Positions 2,753 through 32,937 of a stretch of DNA of 33,406 nucleotides are shown here, piece by piece (the stretch's first letter is position 1; the number at the start of each line of letters is the position of its first letter). This stretch comes from an uncultured Pseudomonadota bacterium (GTDB lineage: Bacteria; Pseudomonadota; Gammaproteobacteria; Steroidobacterales; Steroidobacteraceae): the NCBI GenBank assembly GCA_903832085.1, contig CAIKZZ010000038.1:1-33406 (forward strand). The letters are read 5' to 3'. The notes under the pieces are model-generated. The model saw only the letters and a list, made by a program, of their open reading frames with translations. It was not told where the DNA came from and did no database searches. A program made the position numbers and the translations under genes.

Positions 2753-3895
2753 ATGAAGATAATCACACTCGTCGAGGCGCGCTCTGTTACCGGGCCCATA
2801 AAACCATTATTACACCTTGCAGCCATTGAGAGCTCAGCGAATAAAACGCACCATGACTGGCAGCGGATATGCGTCACAACGACACGGGATCCAGACCTCG
2901 GAATTACCCACACAAACTCTTTGCTAGATGCGGCTAAAAAAGTCGCCCTTCCGATAATTCTAATTCGCGAGAAACGGCTTTTTGACTTTAGCGTCATCCG
3001 GCAACTGGGTTCAATACTCACTGACGAACAACCGGATATTGTTGAAACTCACGATTTTAAGTCACACTTACTGTTACTGCTCTGCAAGCGACTAACGCGT
3101 CACCACAAATCATTTCGCTGGATCGCGTTTCATCATGGTTACACGCGCATGAGCTGGCGAGTTTACTTCTACCAACAACTGGATCGAATCAGTCTCCGGT
3201 ATGCCAATACAGTGGTAACGCTGTGCAAGCCATTTGTCTCTGTAATTCAGCGTCGTGGAGTCAGATCAGACCGCATACGTGTCATCACAAATTGCATAGA
3301 ACCATTACCGCCACCACATGCGGTAACGCTTGATACGTTGCGTCAAGACCTTGCCATACATGATGAGATGATTCTGCTTGTGGTAGGACGCTTGTCTCCT
3401 GAGAAAGGACACGCCGACTTGTTTGCAGCACTGCGCACATTACTGCAGGACAATCCGGCACTCCGGTGGCGTCTATTGGTCGTTGGTGATGGCGGTGAGC
3501 GTGAGCGCTTGCAGCGCCTCGCCGCACCTCTCAAAAATCGTATTACATTTATTGGCCATCAAACGGACACCTGGCCATACTACTGTGTAGCTGACCTGTT
3601 CGTGCTTTCGTCGCTGAGCGAGGGCTCACCACTCGTCATCCTTGAGGCCATGGCGGCAGGATTGCCCATCGTAGCCACCATCGTCGGCGGAGTTCCTGAA
3701 CTGTTAACCGATAATGAGACTGCTCTTTTAACGCCACCCGCCGATCCGCAGGCCTTGGCACGTGCTATAGCGATTCTGCTCACCAATCCGGCAGTGCGTC
3801 AGTCATTAGGAGCCGCGGCTCGAAGCGCTTCAGAATCCCATACACCCCTAAAGTACGCCACGGCAGTTCATGCCCTATATGCAGACCCACTGTAA
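2753..3895 (+). CDS. GT4-family glycosyltransferase
   Basis: A 380-residue GT-B glycosyltransferase. The N-terminal domain (about 1-185) has the acceptor-side fold, with PDIVETHDFKSHLL and WIAFHHGYT, patterns seen in polysaccharide or LPS GT4 enzymes. The donor domain (about 200-380) has LLVVGRLSPEKGHADL, LLVVGDGGERERLQRLA, ITFIGHQTD and the signature SEGSPLVILEAMAAGLPIVA, in which the first conserved Glu of the EX7E motif lies in SEGSP and the second in LEAM. It ends with the GGVPELL loop. Donor and acceptor cannot be predicted. It is transcribed away from the tRNA and is separated from cstA by 219 bp, so it is probably its own unit. The start is the first Met, with only weak upstream purines. 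Confidence 0.88.
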   Translation: MKIITLVEARSVTGPIKPLLHLAAIESSANKTHHDWQRICVTTTRDPDLGITHTNSLLDAAKKVALPIILIREKRLFDFSVIRQLGSILTDEQPDIVETHDFKSHLLLLLCKRLTRHHKSFRWIAFHHGYTRMSWRVYFYQQLDRISLRYANTVVTLCKPFVSVIQRRGVRSDRIRVITNCIEPLPPPHAVTLDTLRQDLAIHDEMILLVVGRLSPEKGHADLFAALRTLLQDNPALRWRLLVVGDGGERERLQRLAAPLKNRITFIGHQTDTWPYYCVADLFVLSSLSEGSPLVILEAMAAGLPIVATIVGGVPELLTDNETALLTPPADPQALARAIAILLTNPAVRQSLGAAARSASESHTPLKYATAVHALYADPL

Positions 3896-11220: not shown

Positions 11221-12615
11221 CTAGTGATCGGTCGCAATTGCCCCCATACCGGCCAAGAGCCCCAAGATCTCTTGCGTCTTAGCCTCCATCAGCGCGCCGT
11301 CTGCCCGACTTTCCACATTGAGGCGCAGTAGCGGCTCTGTATTGGAAGAACGCACGTTGAGCCGCCACTGTGGCATTTCTAATGACAGGCCATCCGTTCG
11401 ATCGATGCGCATCGCGAGCGGCCCATAGGCGCGCTCAATGGCGGCGATGGCTTGCTCAGCATCTGGGACACGTCGATTAATCTCGCCACTGACCGGGAAC
11501 AAACGCTGCCGCTCGCTCACTAGTGCCGACAGCGACTGACCTGTCTGTGACAACACTTGTGCGAGCACCAACCAGGGGATCATACCGCTGTCGCAGTATG
11601 CAAAGTCACGGAAGTAATGATGTGCACTCATTTCACCGCCATACACCGCATCAACCTCACGCATCACTTGCTTAATAAACGCATGTCCCGACTTGCACAA
11701 CACCGCCTTGCCGCCACTTTGCTCAACCATATCCAAAGTGTTCCACGTCAGTCGCGGATCATGGACCACACGTGCTCCGGGCTCACGGGCGAGGAACACC
11801 GAGGCAAGCAAACCGACGATGTAATATCCCTCAATAAATGCACCGGTTTCATCAAAGAAAAAACAGCGGTCGAAATCGCCATCCCAAGCAATACCGAAAT
11901 CTGCATGCTCACGGCGCACCGCATCAGTAACTGGCTGCCGGTTTTGCTCCAACATAGGGTTCGGAACACCGTTCGGAAATGTTCCATCAACATCATGAAA
12001 TAATTTGACGAATTGAAAAGGCAATCGCGACTCGAGCTGATCAATAACCAGCCCAGCACCACCATTACCTGCATTACAAACGATTTTTAATGGCTTAAGA
12101 GCTGCCACATCGATATAGCTCAATAAATGGTCGATATATCGCTGCGAATTATCCACCTGGCTAATCATGCCGCGCTTAATTGGCGTCTTAAACTGCCCCT
12201 GCTCCGCAAACTTGCGGATTTCTTGAAGGCCAGTGTCACCTGAAATCGGCCTCGAGCCCTCACGCACAAATTTCATCCCGTTATAATCGGGCGGATTGTG
12301 ACTCGCCGTGACCATGATGCCGCCGTCAAGCGCAAGATCAGATGTTGAGAAATAGACGCCCTCGGTCCCGCATAACCCAATATCGACCACATCGACCCCT
12401 GAGTCTGCCAAACCACGCATCACAGCCTCAGCAAGCTCTGCGCTCGATAGGCGAATATCGCGCCCTACGCAGACGCGCGCAGGGCGCAAAAACTCCGCAT
12501 AGCCACGCGCAACTCGATAGGCGATGTCGGGATTTAACTCTGTCGGAATCCGGCCACGCAAATCGTATGCTTTAAAGCAACTAATTGATGACACAGTCGT
12601 GGATGCTGCTGTCAC
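11221..12615 (-). CDS. manB: Phosphomannomutase (ManB/CpsG type)
   Basis: A 464-residue alpha-D-phosphohexomutase converting mannose-6-phosphate to mannose-1-phosphate for GDP-mannose synthesis. Domain landmarks: [14 protein letters not shown] at the start, the phosphoserine loop [16 protein letters not shown] (around residues 100-115), the metal loop [13 protein letters not shown] (around 243), the sugar-specificity loop [12 protein letters not shown] (around 325), and the phosphate-binding [15 protein letters not shown] near the end. The segment [14 protein letters not shown] is very close to E. coli CpsG/ManB. In the metal loop the usual DGDxDR is DGDFDR, so metal binding is intact. Start GTG at 12615 overlaps the manC stop (GTGA). 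It is the last gene of ugd-manC-manB. Confidence 0.93.
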
Positions 12616-14036
12616 GTATTTGTCCCCTGCCGACCGTACGTATCTTCAAAGCGCACAATGTCATCTTCACCCAAATAGCTCCCCGATTGAACCTCGATCA
12701 CGTGCAACGGGACCTTGCCAGGGTTCTCAATACGATGCGTTGCTCCAAGGGGGATGTAGGTTGACTCGTTCTCAGATAGGAAAAACACCTTTTCATTGCA
12801 GGTAATTTTTGCTGTGCCAGATACCACGATCCAATGCTCTGCACGATGATGATGCATTTGCAAAGAAAGCTGCGCACCGGGGTTTACGGTTAAGCGCTTG
12901 ACCTGAAAGCGCGCCCCACCGTCGACACTGTCATAACTGCCCCAAGGTCTAAATACCTCTCGGTGCAGCGATGTTTCTGAGCGTCCCAACTGCTTCAGCT
13001 TATTCACCAAAGCCTTAACTTCTTGGACTCGCGCTTTCGGTGCAACGAGCACCGCATCCTTTGTTTCAATAACGACATGGTCTTGAAGGCCGACAGTCGC
13101 CACTAGACGTTCAGACGAGTACAGATAACAACCCGATGAGTCTTCAACGATGACATCACCACGCAACACATTACCGTCACTGTCTGCATCAAGACTTTCA
13201 TGCAATGACGACCAAGAACCTACATCACTCCACCCTGCGTCTAGCGGTACAACCACGGCATCGCGTGTTTTTTCCATGACCGCATAATCGATCGAATCAC
13301 TCGGACAGCGACTAAATTCCTCGGTGGATAAACGTGTGAAATCCAAGTCACCAGAGCTGGCTGAATATGCTGCTCGACAACTCGCGAGCATCTGCGGGGC
13401 ATGTAGTTCCAGCTCGCGCAAATAGCGTCTCGCACCAAACAGGAACATACCACTGTTCCAAAAGTACTGACCTGAAGCGACGTACTCCTGAGCTTTGACC
13501 ACATCTGGCTTTTCAACGAACTCTTCGATCGGATAAGCCGATGCCTCGATCGCCGCGCGTCTTATATAGCCGTAGCCTACCTCGGGCTTATCAGGGATCA
13601 CCCCAAAGGTCACCAGCTTCCCGGCCTTTGCCGACTCAATACCGACCCGAATAGCTGCCTGAAACGCCCCAACATCGCGCAGCAGGTGATCGGCAGGCAA
13701 CACCAACAGCAATGGATCGGCACTGGCAGGTTGGCCTTTGAGCGCAGCCAATGCAGCGATGGCCACTGCCGGTGCCGTATTACGGCCGACAGGTTCCAGC
13801 ACAATCGCGGTTGGCGTGACCACATGCTGCCGCAATTGTTCTGCGACTATAAACCGATGATTCTCATTACAGACAACGATCGGACCTTTAGCGTCCAGAC
13901 CATCAAGCCGCCGGATCGTGTCCTGCAGCATGGTAATTTCGCCGACCAGTGGCAAAAACTGCTTAGGGTAAAGTTCGCGCGATAGCGGCCAAAGTCGCGT
14001 ACCAGCGCCGCCCGACAAAATCACGGGTATCAACAT
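12612..14036 (-). CDS. manC: Mannose-1-phosphate guanylyltransferase / mannose-6-phosphate isomerase
   Basis: A bifunctional type II enzyme (474 aa from this start) of the AlgA/ManC/CpsB family. The N-terminal nucleotidyltransferase domain has [20 protein letters not shown] and later FVEKPD, and makes GDP-mannose from mannose-1-P and GTP. The C-terminal cupin (about 370-470) has [30 protein letters not shown] and [13 protein letters not shown], the isomerase metal-binding part. An ATG at 14042 is in frame, but AAGGA lies 7 nt before ATG 14036 and only 1 nt before ATG 14042, so 14036 is preferred. Ten base pairs separate it from ugd, and it overlaps manB. With ManB it provides GDP-mannose. Confidence 0.93.
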
Positions 14037-24027: not shown

Positions 24028-24300
24028 ATGCCGACCAACGCCCCCACATCGCCACTCACAGCATCCGAACGCGTCCGACAGGTGCTTAAAGCGCACGGAC
24101 GCCTCGCGACTGCCATTGAGTCACTCGGCGATACGGACAGCTTGTATCAGGCGGGACTGACGTCGCATGCCAGCATCAACGTCATGCTGGGCCTTGAGGG
24201 AGAATTCAATATTGAATTTCCCGACAGTCTGTTGAAGCGGGGAACGTTTGAGAGCGTTGCAGCGATCACGTCTGCGCTTGAAACTCTCACCCCGGGCTGA
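24028..24300 (+). CDS. Carrier protein for the amino acid:[carrier protein] ligase
   Basis: A 90-residue acyl-carrier-like protein: four-helix pattern with ERVRQVLKAHGRLA first, then DTDSLYQAGLTSHASINVML, EFNIEFPDSLLKR and a last helix (FESVAAITSALETL). The phosphopantetheine site is Ser46 in GLTSHAS, where normal ACPs have GxDSL. The LYxAGLTSHAS...ML form is, as I recall, typical of carrier proteins that partner the SerRS-like ligases, including those of Bradyrhizobium. Thioester-bound glycine or alanine would be its cargo. Open frame reaches back to 23938, but ATG 24028 fits the family length. Its role follows from the ligase gene about 3.9 kb downstream on the same strand. No strong ribosome-binding site is visible. 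Confidence 0.82.
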   Translation: MPTNAPTSPLTASERVRQVLKAHGRLATAIESLGDTDSLYQAGLTSHASINVMLGLEGEFNIEFPDSLLKRGTFESVAAITSALETLTPG

Positions 24301-24334
24301 TGCTCGGACAGCTCCCAATCAGATGGAGCGATCG

Positions 24335-26854
24335 ATGACTAGCCATGCTGACATCGCCAATCTCGACGCGCAGTGGACACTCACACATTGCACGGCCAAC
24401 GCGGTCATCGACCCGGCTGATCTGACCGCACACGCAAGCACCTGGCTCAAGGCGAGCTGCCCAGGCACGGTTGCGGCCACCCTACTCGATGCTGCCGTAC
24501 AGACAGGCGAACAACTGACGCAGTTAGACAGCCACGATTGGTGGTACCACGGTGTTTTCACACTGAGCCACGAGGCCGCCACCACTGATTGGCATTTAGT
24601 ATGCGATGGTCTTGCAACGCTGGCAGATGTTTGGTTAAACGGCGTGTTACTCGGAACCGCGGGCAATATGCACCGCCAGTACCGATTTAGGGTCGCACAG
24701 AGTCACCCGGGGAAAAACGATCTGCATATCCGTTTTCGGTCCGTTTCAGCTCACCTAGAAGCGAAGCGCGAACGTCCACGCTGGCGCGCTCCGATGCTGG
24801 TGCAACAGCAGTTGCGTCATATAAGAACTACCCTGCTCGGCCGAACTCCAGGCTGGTCACCTCCATATCCCGCGATTGGTCCTTGGCGCGCAATTCGGTA
24901 TGAAAGCGCCACACAGATGCGCTTGAGTAATGTGCGCGTCGTGGCAACTTTAAGCCATAACACCGGATTACTTGAGTTTCATGCTGACCTGCGTGGACTA
25001 AATCAATCAGCGATTGTCAGTGGTCGATTACGGCTGCAAGGGCATGGCATCGACCAATCCACAGATCTTGTCCAAAAAGGACAGACCGTACACGCCCGTA
25101 TCGCTATAGAGCAGCCAGCACTATGGTGGCCACACACGCACGGGGAACCTGCACAGTATGAGCCATCCGTGACGCTCACATGTGCCGCACCTAATACTGA
25201 GTCGATCACATTAGCGTTGCCTCCGGTGGGCTTTCGCTCTGTTGAAATACAGCACCGGGATGGCGACTTCGAAATCACTGTTAATCAGTTGCCAGTTTTC
25301 TGTCGCGGGGCCGTCTGGACGCCACCGCAGGCCACTACACTTTGCACGGATAGCACCACACTCAAAGAGCTACTAGGCAACGTTGCGCGTGCCGGCATGA
25401 ATATGCTGCGTATCAGCGGCGCGATGACCTATGAGTCGGATGCGTTTTATACTGAAGCCTCGCGCCTCGGAATATTAGTTTGGCAGGATTTCATGTTCGC
25501 CAACATGGACTATCCCGCAAGTCACCAAGAATTCACCGATGAGATTACTGAGGAAATTGTAGCGTTTGTAAATCGCGTTTCTGGGCAAGCGTGTCTCAGT
25601 ATATTGTGCGGCAATAGCGAGGTCGAGCAACAGGCTGCTATGTGGGGCGCGACCCGTGAATTTTGGGCTCCCGCCCTGTTCCATACGACGATCGCACAGC
25701 TATGCGCAAAGCACTGCCCTACGATCGCTTACTGGCCGTCAAGCGCTCATGGTGGCGCCTTCCCACACCAACCGAATAGCGGCACAAGCTCTTATTACGG
25801 CGTAGGCGCCTATCGCCGTCCAATAGGTGACGCGAGATCGTCAGGCGTACGCTTTACAACCGAGTGCTTAGGTATCGCAAACGTACCCGATCCCGATGAA
25901 CTTGCCGCCATCTCAATCGGGGAAAAAGTCATCGCGGGCTCACCTGCTTGGGCCTCCCGCTCACCGAAAGATCTAGGCGCTGACTGGACCTTCGACGACA
26001 TACGCGATCATTACTTACAGAGCATTTACCAAGTAGACCCTTTGGCACTACGCGCTCAAGATCATGATCGCTATATTGAACTCAGTCGCGCGATTTCGGC
26101 GCATGTGATGCAACGTACTTTTGCCGAGTGGCGCCGTAAAAATTCGGCTTGTCGTGGAGCTATCGTTTGGTTCCTAAAAGACCTGTGGCCATCGACAGGC
26201 TGGGGGCTACTTGCCCATAACGGCGCACCCAAAGCATGCTGGCATGCGCTCAGCCGCATCCTCCAGCCACAAGTTTTATTTATCACTGATGAAGGCCTCA
26301 ATGGCACCGCCTTGCATATCGTCAATGAAAAAGCGCTGCCCCTAACGGGCTTGATCACCGTAACTCTGTATATCAATGCTGAATTAGCGATACGCACAGC
26401 ATCCATGCAGATTGCCGTCCCAGCGAGGCAGACCAACGAAATATGTATCGAGTCGCTGTTTGACGAGTTTAATGACTTATCGCATTCCTATAAATTCGGG
26501 CCTGCTGCCATCGACCTAATTACTGCAACACTCCAGCAAGACACAGCGGGCCCACCGCTCTTGACGCTCTATCAACCGGCTGGGCCGTTGCTCGAGCGTT
26601 CAGACATAGGTCTGTCAGCGCAGATCGCAGCACTCGGCAAAACTCAGTTTGAACTAGTCGTATCGACTCGAGCGTTCGCCCACTCCGTACATATACATAT
26701 TCCAGGAATGACGCTCGCCGACAATCATTTTGATATGGCCCCTGGTGAAGTCCGCCGCATCGAGCTGCCTAGGTACGAAAAGCCTTTAAACGGGGCCGTC
26801 ACCGCACTCAATTCAGACCAAAAAGTCACCTTAAAGTGGCCTACGCATAGCTAA
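24335..26854 (+). CDS. Glycoside hydrolase family 2, beta-mannosidase-like
   Basis: An 839-residue protein built like GH2 beta-mannosidases: an N-terminal jelly-roll sugar-binding domain (WTLTHCTANAVIDPADLTAH, SCPGTVAATLLDA, VCDGLATLADVWLNGVLLGT), Ig-like domains, a TIM-barrel (MNMLRISGAMTYESDAFYTE, then LGILVWQDFMFANMDYP) and C-terminal beta domains. The candidate acid/base is Glu429 in LCGNSEVEQQ and the nucleophile Glu510 in TTECLG. The residue before the acid/base is Ser where GH2 enzymes have Asn. ATG 24335 has GGAG 6 nt upstream and follows the carrier gene by 34 bp; ATG 24323 is a poorer alternative. No signal peptide is seen, so it is probably cytoplasmic. Substrate unknown; its position between carrier and ligase suggests a glycosylated product or acceptor. 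Confidence 0.85.
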   Translation: MTSHADIANLDAQWTLTHCTANAVIDPADLTAHASTWLKASCPGTVAATLLDAAVQTGEQLTQLDSHDWWYHGVFTLSHEAATTDWHLVCDGLATLADVWLNGVLLGTAGNMHRQYRFRVAQSHPGKNDLHIRFRSVSAHLEAKRERPRWRAPMLVQQQLRHIRTTLLGRTPGWSPPYPAIGPWRAIRYESATQMRLSNVRVVATLSHNTGLLEFHADLRGLNQSAIVSGRLRLQGHGIDQSTDLVQKGQTVHARIAIEQPALWWPHTHGEPAQYEPSVTLTCAAPNTESITLALPPVGFRSVEIQHRDGDFEITVNQLPVFCRGAVWTPPQATTLCTDSTTLKELLGNVARAGMNMLRISGAMTYESDAFYTEASRLGILVWQDFMFANMDYPASHQEFTDEITEEIVAFVNRVSGQACLSILCGNSEVEQQAAMWGATREFWAPALFHTTIAQLCAKHCPTIAYWPSSAHGGAFPHQPNSGTSSYYGVGAYRRPIGDARSSGVRFTTECLGIANVPDPDELAAISIGEKVIAGSPAWASRSPKDLGADWTFDDIRDHYLQSIYQVDPLALRAQDHDRYIELSRAISAHVMQRTFAEWRRKNSACRGAIVWFLKDLWPSTGWGLLAHNGAPKACWHALSRILQPQVLFITDEGLNGTALHIVNEKALPLTGLITVTLYINAELAIRTASMQIAVPARQTNEICIESLFDEFNDLSHSYKFGPAAIDLITATLQQDTAGPPLLTLYQPAGPLLERSDIGLSAQIAALGKTQFELVVSTRAFAHSVHIHIPGMTLADNHFDMAPGEVRRIELPRYEKPLNGAVTALNSDQKVTLKWPTHS

Positions 26855-26990
26855 CGCGGGGTCGGTGGACGATGGCGGCACGACACAGCCCAAAAGTGCA
26901 TTTTGTGGCCTGTGTCTCATCGATGCGACATAATTAGTCCATAATTGGCCCCGCAGCTCCCGCTCACTCAGCGCGTTTGGACTATACAGA

Positions 26991-28172
26991 ATGACTCGCA
27001 GCACGACAGCACGCCCATTCGCAGAACTACTCGCCCTGACGCGCACGATTGCTCGTGAGGTTGCAGCGAAACATGCTGATAGCGTTGATCGCGACGCACG
27101 CTTTCCGAGTGAAACACTGGCGGCCTTAAAGGACGCCAAACTGCTCTCGACTTTGGTACCAAGCGCGCTTGGTGGAGACGGCGCTAGTCTCAGTGAACTT
27201 GCTCAGCTGTGCTCGGTGCTCGCAGAAGGCTGCTCCTCGAGCGCAATGATTTTGGCGATGCATCAAATCCAAGTCGCCTGTCTTGTCCGTCACGGTCAGG
27301 ATACGCCTTTTTTCCAAAACTACCTGCGTCTGATGGTAAGCAGTCAACCGCTCATCGGCTCGGTGACATCCGAGGTTGGCACCTTCGGCGACACACGCTC
27401 TAGTATTTGTGGAGTCGAGGTCGCAGGTGACCGGTTTACGCTAATGAAGAAAGCGACCACCGTATCCTATGGCGCCTATTGCGATGCGCTACTACTCACC
27501 TGTCGCCGCAACCCTGAAACCAGCGCAAGCGATCAAGTATTAGTCCTCGCAACAAAAGACGATTACCAACTAAAACAGACGACCGCCTGGGATACTTTGG
27601 GCATGCGCGGCACCAACAGCCCAGGCTTTGAGGTCCATTGCCAGGGTTCTGCTGAGCAGATCCTCCCCGGCGCGTATGCAGACTCATCTGCGATGAGCAT
27701 GGTGCCCTACTCGCACGTCCTTTGGTCAGCGCTGTGGCAAGGCATCGCCGCCGATGCGGTCGGACGAGCCGCAACAATGGTACGCGCCGAAGCACGCAAG
27801 ACGCCGGGGACTACACCGACTTCAGCAATACGTCTCGCACAAGTCCACAGCGATTTACAGGCCATGAAACATCATTGGCAAGCCACCGCCAATGAGTTTG
27901 ATCAGCTTGAAGCAACGGACGCCGGCCGTACAGAGCTTTTATCACTTGGCTGGGCCTTGAAATTTAACAACCTAAAGACAAGCTGCTCGGATATGGCGCC
28001 GCGCATTGTTCATCAGGCACTGCAAATCACTGGAATCATGGGCTATAAGAACGATTCTCCGTATAGCGTTGGCCGACACTACCGCGATGTTTTATCCGCA
28101 TCGTTAATGGTGTCCAATGACCGCATTGCAGCTAAGAGCGCCTCAATGCTACTTGTCTTTAAAGACACTTGA
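26991..28172 (+). CDS. Acyl-CoA-dehydrogenase-like flavoprotein lacking the catalytic Glu
   Basis: A 393-residue protein of the acyl-CoA dehydrogenase fold: an N-terminal helical domain (FPSETLAALKDAKLLSTLVP, LGGDGASLSELAQLCSVLA, then CSSSAMILAMHQIQVACLVR), a middle beta domain (IGSVTSEVGTFGD, FTLMKKATTVSYGAYCDALL, WDTLGMRGTNSPGFEV), and a C-terminal helical domain with LQITGIMGYKNDSPYSVG. At the C-terminus, where dehydrogenases have YRDxxxxxxYEG, this has YRDVLSASLMVSND, so the catalytic Glu is Val374; helix G, where isovaleryl-CoA dehydrogenase keeps its Glu, also shows none. FAD binding is expected. It may act on carrier-bound aminoacyl thioesters, perhaps as an N-oxygenase. It overlaps the ligase frame only if the TTG at 28169 is the ligase start. 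Confidence 0.82.
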   Translation: MTRSTTARPFAELLALTRTIAREVAAKHADSVDRDARFPSETLAALKDAKLLSTLVPSALGGDGASLSELAQLCSVLAEGCSSSAMILAMHQIQVACLVRHGQDTPFFQNYLRLMVSSQPLIGSVTSEVGTFGDTRSSICGVEVAGDRFTLMKKATTVSYGAYCDALLLTCRRNPETSASDQVLVLATKDDYQLKQTTAWDTLGMRGTNSPGFEVHCQGSAEQILPGAYADSSAMSMVPYSHVLWSALWQGIAADAVGRAATMVRAEARKTPGTTPTSAIRLAQVHSDLQAMKHHWQATANEFDQLEATDAGRTELLSLGWALKFNNLKTSCSDMAPRIVHQALQITGIMGYKNDSPYSVGRHYRDVLSASLMVSNDRIAAKSASMLLVFKDT

Positions 28173-28186
28173 GTAAATCATCATCC

Positions 28187-29110
28187 ATGACGACTGATCA
28201 CAACACAAACTTCGATCCTTATGAGTTTTATGCAGCCCTCGTTGCCCATAAACTCATCATACCTGTGGGAGTCCCGGGCGCGTTTGGCCGAAGTGCTATT
28301 TTCGAAGACATCCTCGAGCGCTTTAACGCGCTCGTCAGCGCACATAGCGCTGATGACGATGCGCAGATGATGACGTTTCCACCGGTCATTTCGCGGCAGT
28401 TACTTGAAAAAACAGGCTATCTTGATTCTTTCCCACACCTGTGTGGCACTGTCTTCAGTTTTAATGGCGACGAGCGCCAAGCACGTGAACTATCACGACG
28501 CGTCGGAGAAAAAGAGGACTGGTCGAATACTCAAAGCATGGGCGAACTCGTGCTAAATCCAGCAGCGTGTTACCCCGTGTATCCGACTTTCACTGGCATT
28601 TTACCGGTCAAGGGACGCACCGTGACGATGCTCCACTGGGTGTTTCGCAATGAGCCTTCAAACGAACCTACCCGCATGCAATCGTTCCGTGTACGTGAGT
28701 TTGTCCGCGCGGGAACCGAGGCCCAAGTAAGCTCGTGGCGCGACATGTGGCTGGAACGCAGCTTAGGAATTTTTGCAAAACTCGGCTTGCCTGCTCACTC
28801 GGATATTGCGACCGACCCTTTCTTTGGTCGCGCCGGTAAATTGATGGCAGATAGTCAGCGGAAAAATGAGCTCAAGTTTGAAATCAATGTCCCGGTGATT
28901 TCAAAAACTGCGCCCACCGCATGCTGCTCATTCAACTGCCACCAAGATCACTTCAGCACGCCGTTTGGAATCAAAACCCATAATGGAGATGTAGCCAGTA
29001 CTGCATGCGTCGGTCTAGGACTTGAGCGTATTGTGATGGCTCTTTTAAAGACTCACGGACTAGATCCCACAGGCTGGCCAGCAACTGTGCGCAAGCACTT
29101 ATGGCCATGA
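28187..29110 (+). CDS. Amino acid--[acyl-carrier-protein] ligase (SerRS-like)
   Basis: A 307-residue catalytic-core homolog of the zinc-dependent methanogenic-type seryl-tRNA synthetase that has no N-terminal tRNA-binding domain. Family members activate small amino acids (glycine or alanine in the characterised Bradyrhizobium and Agrobacterium enzymes) with ATP and load them onto a carrier protein, not tRNA. Class II motif 2 is FRVREFVRAGT, and motif 3 is GLGLERIVMALL. The zinc ligands of the family are present: Cys128 (AACYPVYP), Glu171 (VREF) and Cys274 (TACVGLG). With the alternative TTG start at 28169 these are 134, 177 and 280, close to the Cys131/Glu176/Cys279 I recall for the Bradyrhizobium protein. 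The TTG overlaps the dehydrogenase stop (TTGA); ATG 28187 is my choice but the TTG remains possible. Confidence 0.88.
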   Translation: MTTDHNTNFDPYEFYAALVAHKLIIPVGVPGAFGRSAIFEDILERFNALVSAHSADDDAQMMTFPPVISRQLLEKTGYLDSFPHLCGTVFSFNGDERQARELSRRVGEKEDWSNTQSMGELVLNPAACYPVYPTFTGILPVKGRTVTMLHWVFRNEPSNEPTRMQSFRVREFVRAGTEAQVSSWRDMWLERSLGIFAKLGLPAHSDIATDPFFGRAGKLMADSQRKNELKFEINVPVISKTAPTACCSFNCHQDHFSTPFGIKTHNGDVASTACVGLGLERIVMALLKTHGLDPTGWPATVRKHLWP

Positions 29111-30096
29111 ACAGCCTGCACAGGCTTAGCCATCTTGACAGCAAAACCTATATCCCTAGCCCACTGCATGGGGAGGCAATGGCATGGGTTGAGAAAAACT
29201 GTTACGTCGACGTTTTTATAGAACTGATCCATGCGCTGGGACTTGAGCCTCGCGCAGCGCTACCGTTTGTATTCACGCTCGACTTTCTCAACGACCAATG
29301 GACTTTTTTTAAGCCACCGCATCACGACCTGCAGCGGCTGTACGGAATTGACATCCAAGAGCTGAATGTCTGGCGTCCTCTGTATGAGCATGCACTCACT
29401 TATCAGGAGACGGGCGACCCAATTAGTACGGAGGCAGACTCATACTGGCTTCCGGACACTGCCGGAACGGATTATCGCCGCAACCATGTCAAGACAACCA
29501 TCATCATTTGCCACATTGACGCCAAAGCTCAAACCCTTGGGTATTTCCACAACGCGGGCTATTTTCAGTTAGACGGTGAGGACTTTCGTCATCTTTTCAG
29601 ACTGGACGTCAACAACGATCCTGCTTTCATGCCGTTTTATGCTGAAATTGTGCGACTGGCGCGTGCTACAAAAAAATCTCAGGTCGAAATTACGGAAATT
29701 TCTCTCGAGCTACTGCGCCACCATCTGACCCTTGTCGCTGCTGACAATCCCGTGTCACGGTTTGAAACGTACGTCATTGATCATTGCGAAAAGACCAAAG
29801 AACTCGGTATTGATTACTACCATGCCTGGTCTTTTGCAACGACACGTCAGCTTGGAGCTGCGTCTGAACTCGCAGCCGTCTACTGTGAATGGCTCACAGC
29901 ACAAGGACGGCTTGATTTAGTATCAGCAGCGGCTGACTTTCGCACGATTTCAACACTGACGAAGACCTTACTCCTGAAAATGGCACGCATTTATACCACC
30001 CAGAAAATATCAGACCTACGGCCTCTGTTTGTAGACATGGCAGAGGCCTGGAGTCGCGGCATACACACGCTATCAGCCGCTGTAACAAGGCAATAA
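29107..30096 (+). CDS. DUF1839 protein, possible papain-fold acyltransferase
   Basis: A 329-residue cytoplasmic protein of the DUF1839 family, which occurs beside amino acid:[carrier protein] ligases. The start overlaps the ligase stop (ATGA); ATG 29101, two codons earlier, is also open. No function is established. My reading is that the N-terminal half has the papain-fold pattern of BtrH_N/C39-like proteins: NCYVDVFIELIHALGLEP, with a helix-capping Cys32, then PISTEADSYWLPD, and HVKTTIIICHIDAKAQTLGY with His127 starting a strand and Asn149 (FHNAG) at its partner strand's end. BtrH moves an aminoacyl chain from a carrier protein to an amino group, so the same is plausible here. The C-terminal half is mainly helical. 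Last gene of the cluster. Confidence 0.78.
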   Translation: MNSLHRLSHLDSKTYIPSPLHGEAMAWVEKNCYVDVFIELIHALGLEPRAALPFVFTLDFLNDQWTFFKPPHHDLQRLYGIDIQELNVWRPLYEHALTYQETGDPISTEADSYWLPDTAGTDYRRNHVKTTIIICHIDAKAQTLGYFHNAGYFQLDGEDFRHLFRLDVNNDPAFMPFYAEIVRLARATKKSQVEITEISLELLRHHLTLVAADNPVSRFETYVIDHCEKTKELGIDYYHAWSFATTRQLGAASELAAVYCEWLTAQGRLDLVSAAADFRTISTLTKTLLLKMARIYTTQKISDLRPLFVDMAEAWSRGIHTLSAAVTRQ

Positions 30097-30164: not shown

Positions 30165-30599
30165 CTAACTCGCTCCCTGCTGGCGCGCAAGCCGAATCAG
30201 CTCCCGACGAGACTTCTTATCAGGGCGGCCCACACTGCGCGGCCGAGCGAGCGCAGCGAGCTGCTGACTCTCACGCCACCGCACCCCGTTCGCGATACTC
30301 GCGACCGATTCCACGTAGCAGGCGCGCGCCTCCGGTGCGGGCCCGCGCCTGAGGGGAATGTCTAGGACCTCAAGCTCTACTTTGCGCCCAGCCATATCGA
30401 GGATGAGCGCATCTCCGATCCCCACCGAGCGGGCTGCACGCACCCGTAGACCACCCACTTGAACTTTTCCAGCCTCTACCGCAGCCGCTGCCAGAGCGCG
30501 CGTTTTGTATAAGCGCACCATCCATAGCCAGCGATCGAGCCGTAATGCCTTTTCGGCATGCCCCAATTCCGCACCATCAGACACCCGACGAGTTGCCAT
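30165..30599 (-). CDS. hslR: S4-domain RNA-binding heat shock protein Hsp15 type
   Basis: A 144-residue S4 RNA-binding protein of the Hsp15 family. The S4 domain starts with LRLDRWLWMVRLYKTRALAA and AAVEAGKVQVGGLRVRAARS, then VGIGDALIL. The C-terminal tail is basic (GRPDKKSRRELIRLARQQ), as in Hsp15, which binds stalled 50S subunits carrying nascent chains after heat stress and aids their recycling. ATG 30599 has AAGG 5 nt upstream and is preferred to the in-frame start at 30662. It is divergent from kbl, with about 110 bp between, and convergent with the DUF1839 gene. Confidence 0.85.
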   Translation of the reverse strand: MATRRVSDGAELGHAEKALRLDRWLWMVRLYKTRALAAAAVEAGKVQVGGLRVRAARSVGIGDALILDMAGRKVELEVLDIPLRRGPAPEARACYVESVASIANGVRWRESQQLAALARPRSVGRPDKKSRRELIRLARQQGAS

Positions 30600-30669
30600 A
30601 TCCACCTTACCAAACCCACCAAGGCGACAAAGTGAGCGGTTAATTGCAATGCCTGCTGACAATTTTGCC

Positions 30670-30710: not shown

Positions 30711-31898
30711 ATGGACACTCATTTCTACTCGCGTCTGGAATCGGATCTGGCTGGCCTAGAAACGGCTGGCCTATACAAAACAGAACGCTTGCTCGGCTCT
30801 GCCCAAAATGCGGCGATCCGCGTGAATGGCCACGAGGTAATTAACCTGTGTGCCAACAATTATTTAGGCCTCGCCAGCCACCCAGCCATCCGTGAAGCGG
30901 CGCACCGAGCACTGGACCGCTATGGCTATGGCATGGCGTCCGTGCGTTTCATCTGCGGCACACACGATGTACATCGCGAGTTAGAAGCCAAACTCGCATC
31001 CTTTCTCGGGTTCGAAAATGCCATATTATATTCGTCTTGCTTTGATGCGAACGGCGGATTATTCGAGACGCTCCTTGGTGAGGAAGATGCCGTCATCTCC
31101 GACTCCCTAAACCACGCTTCCATCATTGACGGTATTCGTCTGTGTAAAGCACAAAAGTTTCGCTACGCGAATCGCGACCTTGCGGATCTGGAGAGCAAAC
31201 TAAAAGACAGCGCGAGCGCTCGGACACGAATGATCGTAACCGATGGTGTCTTCTCAATGGACGGCACCTTTGCGCCGCTATCTGAAATCGTCGATTTGGC
31301 TGAAAAATATCAAGCACTTGTCGTTGTAGACGACTCACATGCCACCGGATTTATTGGCGAGCATGGTCGCGGCACTCATGAGCGCGCGAATGTCTTAGGA
31401 CGAGTTGATCTGATGACCGGCACGTTAGGCAAAGCCCTCGGTGGCGCCGCTGGTGGCTATGTCGTCGGGAAACAGTCGGCCATCAACTGGCTACGCCAGC
31501 GCTCACGACCGTATTTGTTCTCAAATTCTGTGCCGCCAGTGATCGCCGCCACCACCTTGCGCGTACTCGACTTAATCAAAGACGGCGCCGCATTGCGAGC
31601 CCAACTCAATCAAAATGCAGTTCAATTCAGAGCCGGCCTTACGGCCGCCGGGTTCACACTCACACCCGGTACCCACCCAATTATCCCCGTGATGATCGGC
31701 GATGCAGCGCTCGCCGGAAAAATGGCAGATCGGCTATTGGGACTTGGCGTGTACGTCATTGGCTTTTCATTCCCAGTCGTCCCAAAAGGACAAGCGCGTA
31801 TACGCACACAAATGAATGCCGGTCATACTAAAGAGCAACTGGAACACGCGATCGCGGCGTTTACCACAGCTGGCCGCGAACTTGGCTTAGTGAATTAA
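30711..31898 (+). CDS. kbl: Glycine C-acetyltransferase (2-amino-3-ketobutyrate CoA ligase)
   Basis: A 395-residue PLP-dependent alpha-oxoamine synthase that splits 2-amino-3-ketobutyrate with CoA into glycine and acetyl-CoA. Signature segments are [60 protein letters not shown] and [18 protein letters not shown], the last holding the PLP-binding Lys. Length and order match E. coli Kbl (398 aa). Ten bases separate it from tdh, so together they form the threonine degradation pathway. If the neighbouring amino acid:carrier ligase uses glycine, the pair may also supply its substrate, but this is only suggested by proximity. Confidence 0.97.
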
Positions 31899-31908
31899 GG
31901 GACGCACG

Positions 31909-32937
31909 ATGAAAGCACTCGTAAAATCAAAAGCGGAGCCCGGGATCTGGATGGCAGATATTTCCGAACCTAGCTACGGCCCAAACGATGTCTTGATCAA
32001 GATGAAAAAGACGGCGATCTGCGGCACTGATATGCACATCTGGCACTGGGACGAGTGGGCCCAGCGCACCATCAAAGTACCCATGGCCGTTGGCCACGAA
32101 TATGTCGGTGAAATCGTTGCGATGGGCACTGAAGTACGCGGCCTTTCAATAGGCGATCGTGTCTCGGGTGAAGGGCACATCACGTGTGGCCATTGTCGGA
32201 ATTGTCGCGCTGGTCGGCGTCATCTGTGCCGCAACACGGTTGGCGTTGGCGTCAACCGGCCGGGATGCTTTGCAGAACTCATGTCGCTGCCATCGAGCAA
32301 TGTCTTTAAACTATCGGACTCGATCACGGACGACATCGCCTCAATCCTAGACCCATTTGGCAATGCTACTCACACCGCGCTGTCCTTCAATCTTGTCGGC
32401 GAGGATGTGCTCATCACAGGCGCGGGCCCTATCGGTATTATGGCAGTCGCTATTGCTCGCTTTGTCGGATGTAGACATATCGTGGTGACTGATATAAACC
32501 CCTACCGACTAGAACTCGCCCGTCGCATGGGAGCCACGCGAGCCATCGATATCCGCACCGAGAGCATTGACTCAGCGATGAAAGAGCTAGGCATGGAAGA
32601 AGGCTTCGATGTCGGCTTAGAGATGTCGGGTGTACCGAGCGCATTCCGTGAAATGCTGCGCACGATGCACCATGGCGGCAGCGTCGCACTGCTCGGCATC
32701 ATGCCGGCGGACACCGGCATCCACTGGGATGAAGTGATTTTTAAGGGACTTGTAATGAAAGGCGTCTACGGACGCGAAATGTTCGAAACGTGGTACAAGA
32801 TGTCGAGCATGCTACAAAGTGGGCTCGACATCGCACCGGTTATTACCCACCGGCTGCCAGTCGCTGAGTTTCGTACGGGCTTTGAGACGATGGCCTCAGG
32901 CAAAAGCGGCAAAGTCATCCTCGACTGGACGGTTTAA
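31909..32937 (+). CDS. tdh: L-threonine 3-dehydrogenase
   Basis: A 342-residue zinc-dependent medium-chain dehydrogenase that oxidises L-threonine to 2-amino-3-ketobutyrate with NAD+, feeding Kbl. Catalytic zinc ligands are Cys38 (AICGTD) and His63-Glu64 (GHEY); the structural zinc site is Cys93, Cys96, Cys99 and Cys107 ([15 protein letters not shown]). The dinucleotide-binding loop [10 protein letters not shown] follows, and the [15 protein letters not shown] strand ends in an Asp that favours NAD+. AAGGGA lies 6 nt upstream of the ATG. Size and start match E. coli Tdh (341 aa). Confidence 0.97.

Follow-up and report, generated by a model that had tools for sequence, protein, structure and literature searches.

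A recurrent five-gene cluster combining a SerRS-like amino acid:carrier protein ligase with a DUF1839 protein of likely transfer function

What is the role of a small carrier protein whose gene shares a cluster with those of an amino acid-loading enzyme and a glycoside hydrolase? This question is raised by a gene cluster of an uncultured Steroidobacteraceae bacterium (Pseudomonadota; assembly GCA_903832085.1), found on a stretch of 33,406 nt that was analysed as a whole and is called the window here (contig CAIKZZ010000038.1, positions 1 to 33,406). According to the open reading frame (ORF) list of the window, five ORFs lie within positions 24028-30096, all of them on the plus strand. A previous reading of the letters alone, without database searches (the sequence-only reading), had described them as consecutive genes on one strand, which they are:

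24028..24300, plus strand: small carrier protein of 90 amino acids (aa), ATG start; NF005480 97.3 bits (cut-off 72), PF00550
24335..26854 (start 24335 or 24323), plus strand: GH2 beta-mannosidase-like protein; PF22666 (E 2e-26), PF17753
26991..28172, plus strand: acyl-CoA-dehydrogenase-fold flavoprotein (ACAD); PF02771, PF00441
28169..29110, plus strand: amino acid:carrier protein ligase resembling seryl-tRNA synthetase (SerRS), 313 aa; NF005479 397.6 bits (cut-off 357)
29101..30096, plus strand: DUF1839, papain-like protein; PF08893 338 bits

The spacing is likewise as it had been described. Carrier and GH2 genes are separated by 34 bp if GH2 starts at ATG 24335 (an alternative ATG is located at 24323), and 136 bp lie between the end of GH2 (26854) and the start of ACAD (26991). 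The ligase starts at the ACAD stop with TTG 28169, giving an overlap of 4 bp; ATG 28187 is a second in-frame start candidate. DUF1839 and ligase overlap by 10 bp (29101 to 29110). Promoter and terminator scans showed no excess over shuffles.

The five genes are a real unit and belong to a widespread pathway, apparently undescribed as far as the open-licence literature goes. A phylum sample of 398 evenly drawn genomes contained 16 genomes with DUF1839 (that of the window included) and 28 with a ligase over the cut-off. Carrier, ACAD, ligase, DUF1839 and GH2 stand side by side in all 16 DUF1839 genomes, hence their adjacency is beyond chance. A second survey drew on DUF1839 relatives from named genomes, taking the best 80 of 571; this set is biased to close relatives and not random. 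Together with three relatives and the window these are 84 loci, 62 of which hold all five families; many misses are contig ends. Loci with at least 7 kb before and at least 4 kb after DUF1839 were regarded as flank-sufficient (49 of 82, excluding the window and the duplicate L014). All five genes are found in 43 of these 49, so that co-occurrence in relatives holds in both surveys. The six exceptions are L006, L077 and L081 without ligase, L015 with only DUF1839 and GH2, L026 without GH2 and L033 without ACAD. Using hidden Markov models built from these same loci, a two-domain alpha/beta hydrolase was counted in 41 of the 49, an AcpS-like transferase in 31, an esterase in 15 and a stand-alone adenylation family in 5. 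The distribution of DUF1839 is patchy: it occurs in 4 of 98 relatives (own genome included) and in none of the 14 other genomes of the genus. DUF1839 relatives were present in 59 of 72,556 plasmid records and absent from all 50,697 phage records.

The record titles name Proteobacteria, Myxococcales, Planctomycetes, Acidobacteria, Gemmatimonas, Chloroflexi, Acidimicrobiales and Brevibacillus. GH2, carrier, ligase and DUF1839 occur together across distant taxa in several gene orders. Moreover, in the 69 loci where each family has a usable copy, pairwise protein distances were compared between families. Every family pair correlates at 0.60-0.82, to which shared species history also contributes; the permutation maximum is 0.198. 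An alternative would be a catabolic cluster for beta-mannoside utilisation to which the acyl-carrier genes are adjacent by chance. The GH2 protein itself would suit such a task. Its best PDB match is the beta-mannosidase 5n6u (E 4.6e-51) and both Glu residues are conserved: Glu433, which we take to be the candidate acid/base, in 96% and Glu514, presumably the candidate nucleophile, in 100% of 83 sequences (numbering from start 24323). The constant company of carrier, ligase and DUF1839 over such distances and arrangements argues against chance, and we regard this alternative as very improbable.

Its score over the NF005479 cut-off and its match to Bll0957 identify the SerRS-like enzyme as an amino acid:carrier protein ligase, as the sequence-only reading had it. 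Residues 25-309 of the 313 aa of the ligase align with residues 43-328 of Bll0957 (4h2w, E 2.8e-79; 3mey, E 1.8e-77), therefore leaving no room for a tRNA-binding arm, the lack of which had been noticed before. The likeness to Bll0957-type ligases thus covers the family over full length, the reduced synthetase core and the separate small carrier alongside. Cys134, Glu177 and Cys280 are present in 98 of 98 sequences and presumably are the Cys-Glu-Cys metal ligands. Charging of a tRNA by this enzyme would be suggested by a weak likeness to archaeal-type SerRS (NF002120, 61.7 bits vs a cut-off of 611). We rejected this function: with no tRNA-binding domain, a full-length Bll0957 match and a carrier gene in the same cluster it is hardly conceivable. 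A loader and a small carrier for an amino acid are also known from DltA/DltC D-alanylation. Against the DltC model the carrier of the window scores weakly (16.5 bits, cut-off 68), and the loader is of another family. A 2022 review terms the role of such carrier-bound amino acid attachment unknown (PMC9437257), in line with the earlier statement that the product of the ligase pathway is undescribed. Beyond reviews, a literature search in open-licence papers found no paper on this ligase, and another review does not mention it.

The AlphaFold model of DUF1839 (57 sequences) shows a pLDDT of 95.9 and a pTM of 0.93. Comparison with the PDB using Foldseek yields 19 chains at E<=0.001, namely CtaG (8), AziU2-U3 (3), CcbD (8) and nothing else (TMq 0.48-0.62, E 3e-6 to 7e-4); ordinary papain-like proteins appear only from E 0.058. 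The best matches are CtaG and AziU2-U3, the latter from azinomycin biosynthesis. To our knowledge, the pathways of these two are without GH2 or a SerRS-like loader. CcbD takes up carrier-bound proline with its Cys, and a sugar then receives the proline at its amino group (PMC12945683). For CtaG, movement of an acyl group between carriers is proposed in closthioamide biosynthesis (PMC6772006). Since the predicted fold matches CcbD, which moves a carrier-bound amino acid to an amino sugar, DUF1839 is the likely transfer step and likely represents a carrier-dependent amide-synthase-like enzyme. The cluster resembles the lincosamide synthetase with its CcbD/LmbD also in its layout, by having a loader, a small carrier and a predicted papain-like amide synthase that takes the place of a condensation domain of nonribosomal peptide synthetases. 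Differences are the triad (Cys-His-Glu in CcbD, reported as Cys-Thr/Ser-His in DUF1839), the loader (adenylation domain vs SerRS-like enzyme) and the additional ACAD and GH2 of the cluster; no sequence similarity was detected either. BtrH, another papain-like enzyme, is described in a 2023 survey as acylating an aminoglycoside with an acyl group from a carrier (PMC10318531). Its family PF14399 (BtrH_N) is not matched by the DUF1839 protein at E<=0.01; only PF08893 is.

The same survey had earlier assigned DUF1839 to the papain-like proteins, described its triad as Cys-Thr/Ser-His and suggested, as a guess, a cell-wall action on glycans that depends on acyl-CoA (PMC10318531). New here is the tie to carrier-dependent amide synthases, drawn from the predicted fold, plus the gene context. 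Conservation was analysed with 98 sequences past length and 300-bit filters, and two Cys-less copies fell below the latter and are thus outside the counts. Cys34 is present in the window copy and in 99% of the 98; Glu111, Asp119, His129, Lys131 and His150 are constant and Thr133 is found in 95%. Cys-less and Cys-bearing copies occur as pairs in G425 (L152:7401-8381 and 12232-13452) and in G352 (L160:8435-9421 and L159:88-1299). The papain-like class and the suggested action on glycans would fit a DUF1839 hydrolase as well, that is a thioesterase or peptidase which frees the carrier-bound group or cuts a glycan-attached peptide. The model matches ordinary papain-like proteins at E>0.05 at best, far behind the carrier-dependent enzymes, and such a hydrolase appears unlikely to us.

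Gene identities, co-occurrence, the predicted fold of DUF1839 and residue conservation are the computed basis from which we infer all enzyme activities, above all those of the last three steps, as well as acceptor and product. In step one, a phosphopantetheinyl transferase would arm the carrier at Ser46, the predicted phosphopantetheine site, which is found in 93 of 93 aligned sequences. The SerRS-like ligase would then activate a small amino acid, by analogy Gly or Ala, and load it onto the carrier thiol. As third step the ACAD-fold flavoenzyme would oxidise the carrier-bound group. Cys34 of DUF1839 would receive this group before its transfer to an amine (or hydroxyl) acceptor, comparable to the amino sugar in the case of CcbD. 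Finally, GH2 and the two-domain hydrolase would trim or release a glycoside product, most likely an exopolysaccharide (EPS) unit or a secreted glycoconjugate. A sugar-containing acceptor is favoured by the GH2, by glycan genes beside several loci and by analogy to CcbD. We consider this course of loading, oxidation and transfer through DUF1839 to a glycan-related acceptor moderately probable. A more specific version is put forward tentatively: Gly or Ala on the carrier might be converted by a base-less ACAD to an imino- or dehydro-aminoacyl thioester, which DUF1839 might transfer to an amino sugar within an exopolysaccharide, resulting in an undescribed substituent.

The oxidation step depends on the ACAD, whose AlphaFold model (pLDDT 93.7) is of ordinary fold (Foldseek TM about 0.8). 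The acyl-ACP/acyl-CoA dehydrogenase TcsD ranks first among the Foldseek matches, with many dehydrogenases and monooxygenases close behind. There are 346 PDB chains at E<=0.001, and both enzyme types occur alike among the 50 matches listed. With the conserved Arg365-Asp366 as reference, Val or Ile374 (Val374 in the window) occupies the place of the usual catalytic Glu; we take position 374 to be the catalytic Glu site of the MCAD Glu376 type. Glu128 is constant in the aligned sequences and His242 is found in 99%. As the usual proton-abstracting Glu is missing, alpha-imine formation or oxygenation is as likely as plain desaturation. Judged by these residues, the ACAD probably catalyses something other than standard Glu-driven desaturation or uses another base.

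The glycan surroundings begin in the window itself, which also holds a mannose-1-phosphate guanylyltransferase and a relative of UDP-glucose-6-dehydrogenase. Flippase, chain-length, XrtA-type or glycosyltransferase genes are found near L007, L061, L081, L157, L161, L166 and L189, and L081 has an XrtA-type FemAB over its cut-off. A likeness to exosortase-associated EPS loci of the XrtA/PEP-CTERM type is seen in the hydrolase, representatives of which resemble TIGR03100/TIGR03101, and in two glycosyltransferases of the window. These loci differ in that both hydrolase and window matches stay below the curated cut-offs and that the genome of the window (98.89% complete) gave no match to the exosortase model PF09721, a model which matched in 1 of 14 control genomes. 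Membership in such an exosortase EPS system was rejected for the missing PF09721 match. The two glycosyltransferases of the window that are like the XrtA/PEP-CTERM models TIGR03087/TIGR03088, below cut-off, are located at 493-1746 and 2753-3895. A Pfam scan of 70 of 171 mechanically picked flank ORFs gave Hydrolase_4 in 11 of 70, methyltransferases in 4 and Bac_transf in 3, as tallied from 25 of 87 families among the matches listed. These families point to no single pathway.

Named examples were read from plasmid records, whose annotation is incomplete; a Burkholderia cenocepacia record came without any. In Azospirillum brasilense Sp7, one plasmid carries carrier, ACAD, ligase, DUF1839, GH2 (or beta-mannosidase) and alpha/beta hydrolase in one run. 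The same five genes plus the alpha/beta hydrolase are found in Mycetohabitans rhizoxinica HKI 454 and Phyllobacterium sp. 628, again with GH2 or beta-mannosidase, and Caballeronia grimmiae has carrier, ACAD, ligase, DUF1839 and GH2 annotated. Plasmid pCC283b_4 of Rhizobium leguminosarum CC283b (L183) shows carrier, ACAD, ligase and DUF1839 amid transposases; GH2 is not annotated. On plasmid 13 of Tsukamurella tyrosinosolvens (L189), ligase and carrier are embedded in a set of exopolysaccharide genes that includes glycosyltransferases as well as a phosphopantetheinyl transferase; ACAD and DUF1839 are not annotated. On plasmid p-LAD4 of Priestia aryabhattai (L187), acpS, carrier, ACAD and ligase are accompanied by ATP-grasp, alanine permease and alanine racemase genes, DUF1839 and GH2 not being annotated. 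The product of this locus is possibly derived from alanine.

Four clusters hold carrier, ACAD, DUF1839 and GH2 without the ligase (L006, L063, L077 and L081). The ligase model had no match in their genomes, for one of which a completeness figure is available (G079, the genome of L006, 99%). L013, L036 and L051 also have no ligase in view (L036 and L051 are cut by contig ends) and were outside this genome-wide search; L015 has its ligase elsewhere in the same genome. With the stand-alone adenylation enzyme of L081 as query, relatives at 54-57% identity are found in the other three ligase-less genomes, compared to at most 39% at E<=1e-60 in 11 ligase-bearing genomes. Judged by these identities, the loader seems replaceable, with an adenylation enzyme in place of the SerRS-like ligase. 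This is only suggestive, since one of the four itself supplied the query and all of them may descend from a common EPS locus. FkbH-like genes adjoin the ligase-less L006 and L081. As a substitute loader FkbH was rejected, since it also adjoins L010 and L031, where the ligase is retained. A search for FkbH in the genome of the window gave no match, but the controls gave no match either.

Alternatively, the cluster might make a small diffusible natural product such as an amino acid-derived amide or dipeptide, with DUF1839 joining two small building blocks in the manner proposed for CtaG, and with GH2 and the hydrolase taking off a glycosyl or ester mask. CtaG of closthioamide biosynthesis (PMC6772006) and AziU2-U3 as matches of the DUF1839 model, the Priestia core with its ATP-grasp and alanine genes and the plasmid-borne DUF1839 relatives speak for such a product. 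GH2 in 48 of the 49 flank-sufficient loci, the adenylation family in just 5 and the glycan genes adjoining several clusters speak against it. We regard it as somewhat unlikely.

Several observations weigh against a glycan-directed transfer by DUF1839. Twelve ligase genomes of the phylum sample are without DUF1839, and in nine fetched loci from these the ACAD is kept (9/9) and the carrier was detected in seven, with neither GH2 (0/9) nor DUF1839 (0/9). Hence the core works without these two, and these relatives of the Bll0957 type differ from the cluster here, which has GH2. The published model of DUF1839 puts Thr/Ser at the place of the catalytic His (PMC10318531). A DUF1839 profile (57 sequences) did not reach CtaG, AziU2-U3 or CcbD in the PDB at E<=10, so that the relation to the solved enzymes is one of predicted fold. 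In 2 of the 16 phylum genomes (G352 and G425) the ligase-adjacent DUF1839 copy is without the Cys, which the second copy keeps. The ACAD fold was rejected as a guide to chemistry because its matches do not discriminate. Moreover, the glycan-gene neighbours are a count among the loci looked at, without a background rate from random loci; the annotated neighbours in Phyllobacterium and Caballeronia include no further glycan genes, the Priestia plasmid ties the core to alanine genes and ATP-grasp and not to glycan genes, and FkbH-like genes are found both with and without the ligase. The predicted link of DUF1839 to carrier-dependent amide synthases and the apparent swap of ligase and adenylation enzyme make the role of the pathway testable at the bench.

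The sequence-only reading had furthermore pointed to the glycine-making kbl-tdh pair at a distance of 0.6 kb. The genes following the cluster, all outside the system, are:

30165..30662, minus strand: Hsp15-like S4 protein, boundary gene; PF01479, NF007673 below cut-off
30711-31898, plus strand: kbl; NF005394/NF003808 pair over cut-off for kbl-tdh
31909-32937, plus strand: tdh; same pair

The distance is correct, kbl starting 614 bp past DUF1839 with the Hsp15-like gene between. The metabolic link was not supported. Matches to kbl, tdh and Hsp15 (E<=1e-20) were found neither in the 83 other loci of the DUF1839 set (one duplicate) nor in the 29 loci L138-L166. Within the genus, tdh comes after kbl in all 12 kbl loci, Hsp15 was found in 10 of 12, and the Hsp15-kbl-tdh block also stands in genomes without DUF1839. 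We therefore rejected kbl-tdh as glycine source and regard its proximity as incidental. What remains of the former proposal, that the cluster builds a modified aminoacyl group on a carrier and transfers it to a sugar-containing acceptor, draws on co-occurrence, ligase type and the predicted transfer fold of DUF1839.

Sub-cut-off ligase matches occur in 16 further genomes of the phylum sample; of three loci analysed from these, none has the other four genes at the thresholds used. Streptomyces plasmid records, 22 in all, contain divergent ligase relatives with ~26-32% identity among the matches listed, several of them annotated as hypothetical. A relative of the two-domain hydrolase (426 bits) is encoded on another contig of the genome of the window (C28, L138:8895-10667), next to genes judged by eye to be dTDP-rhamnose and glm genes.

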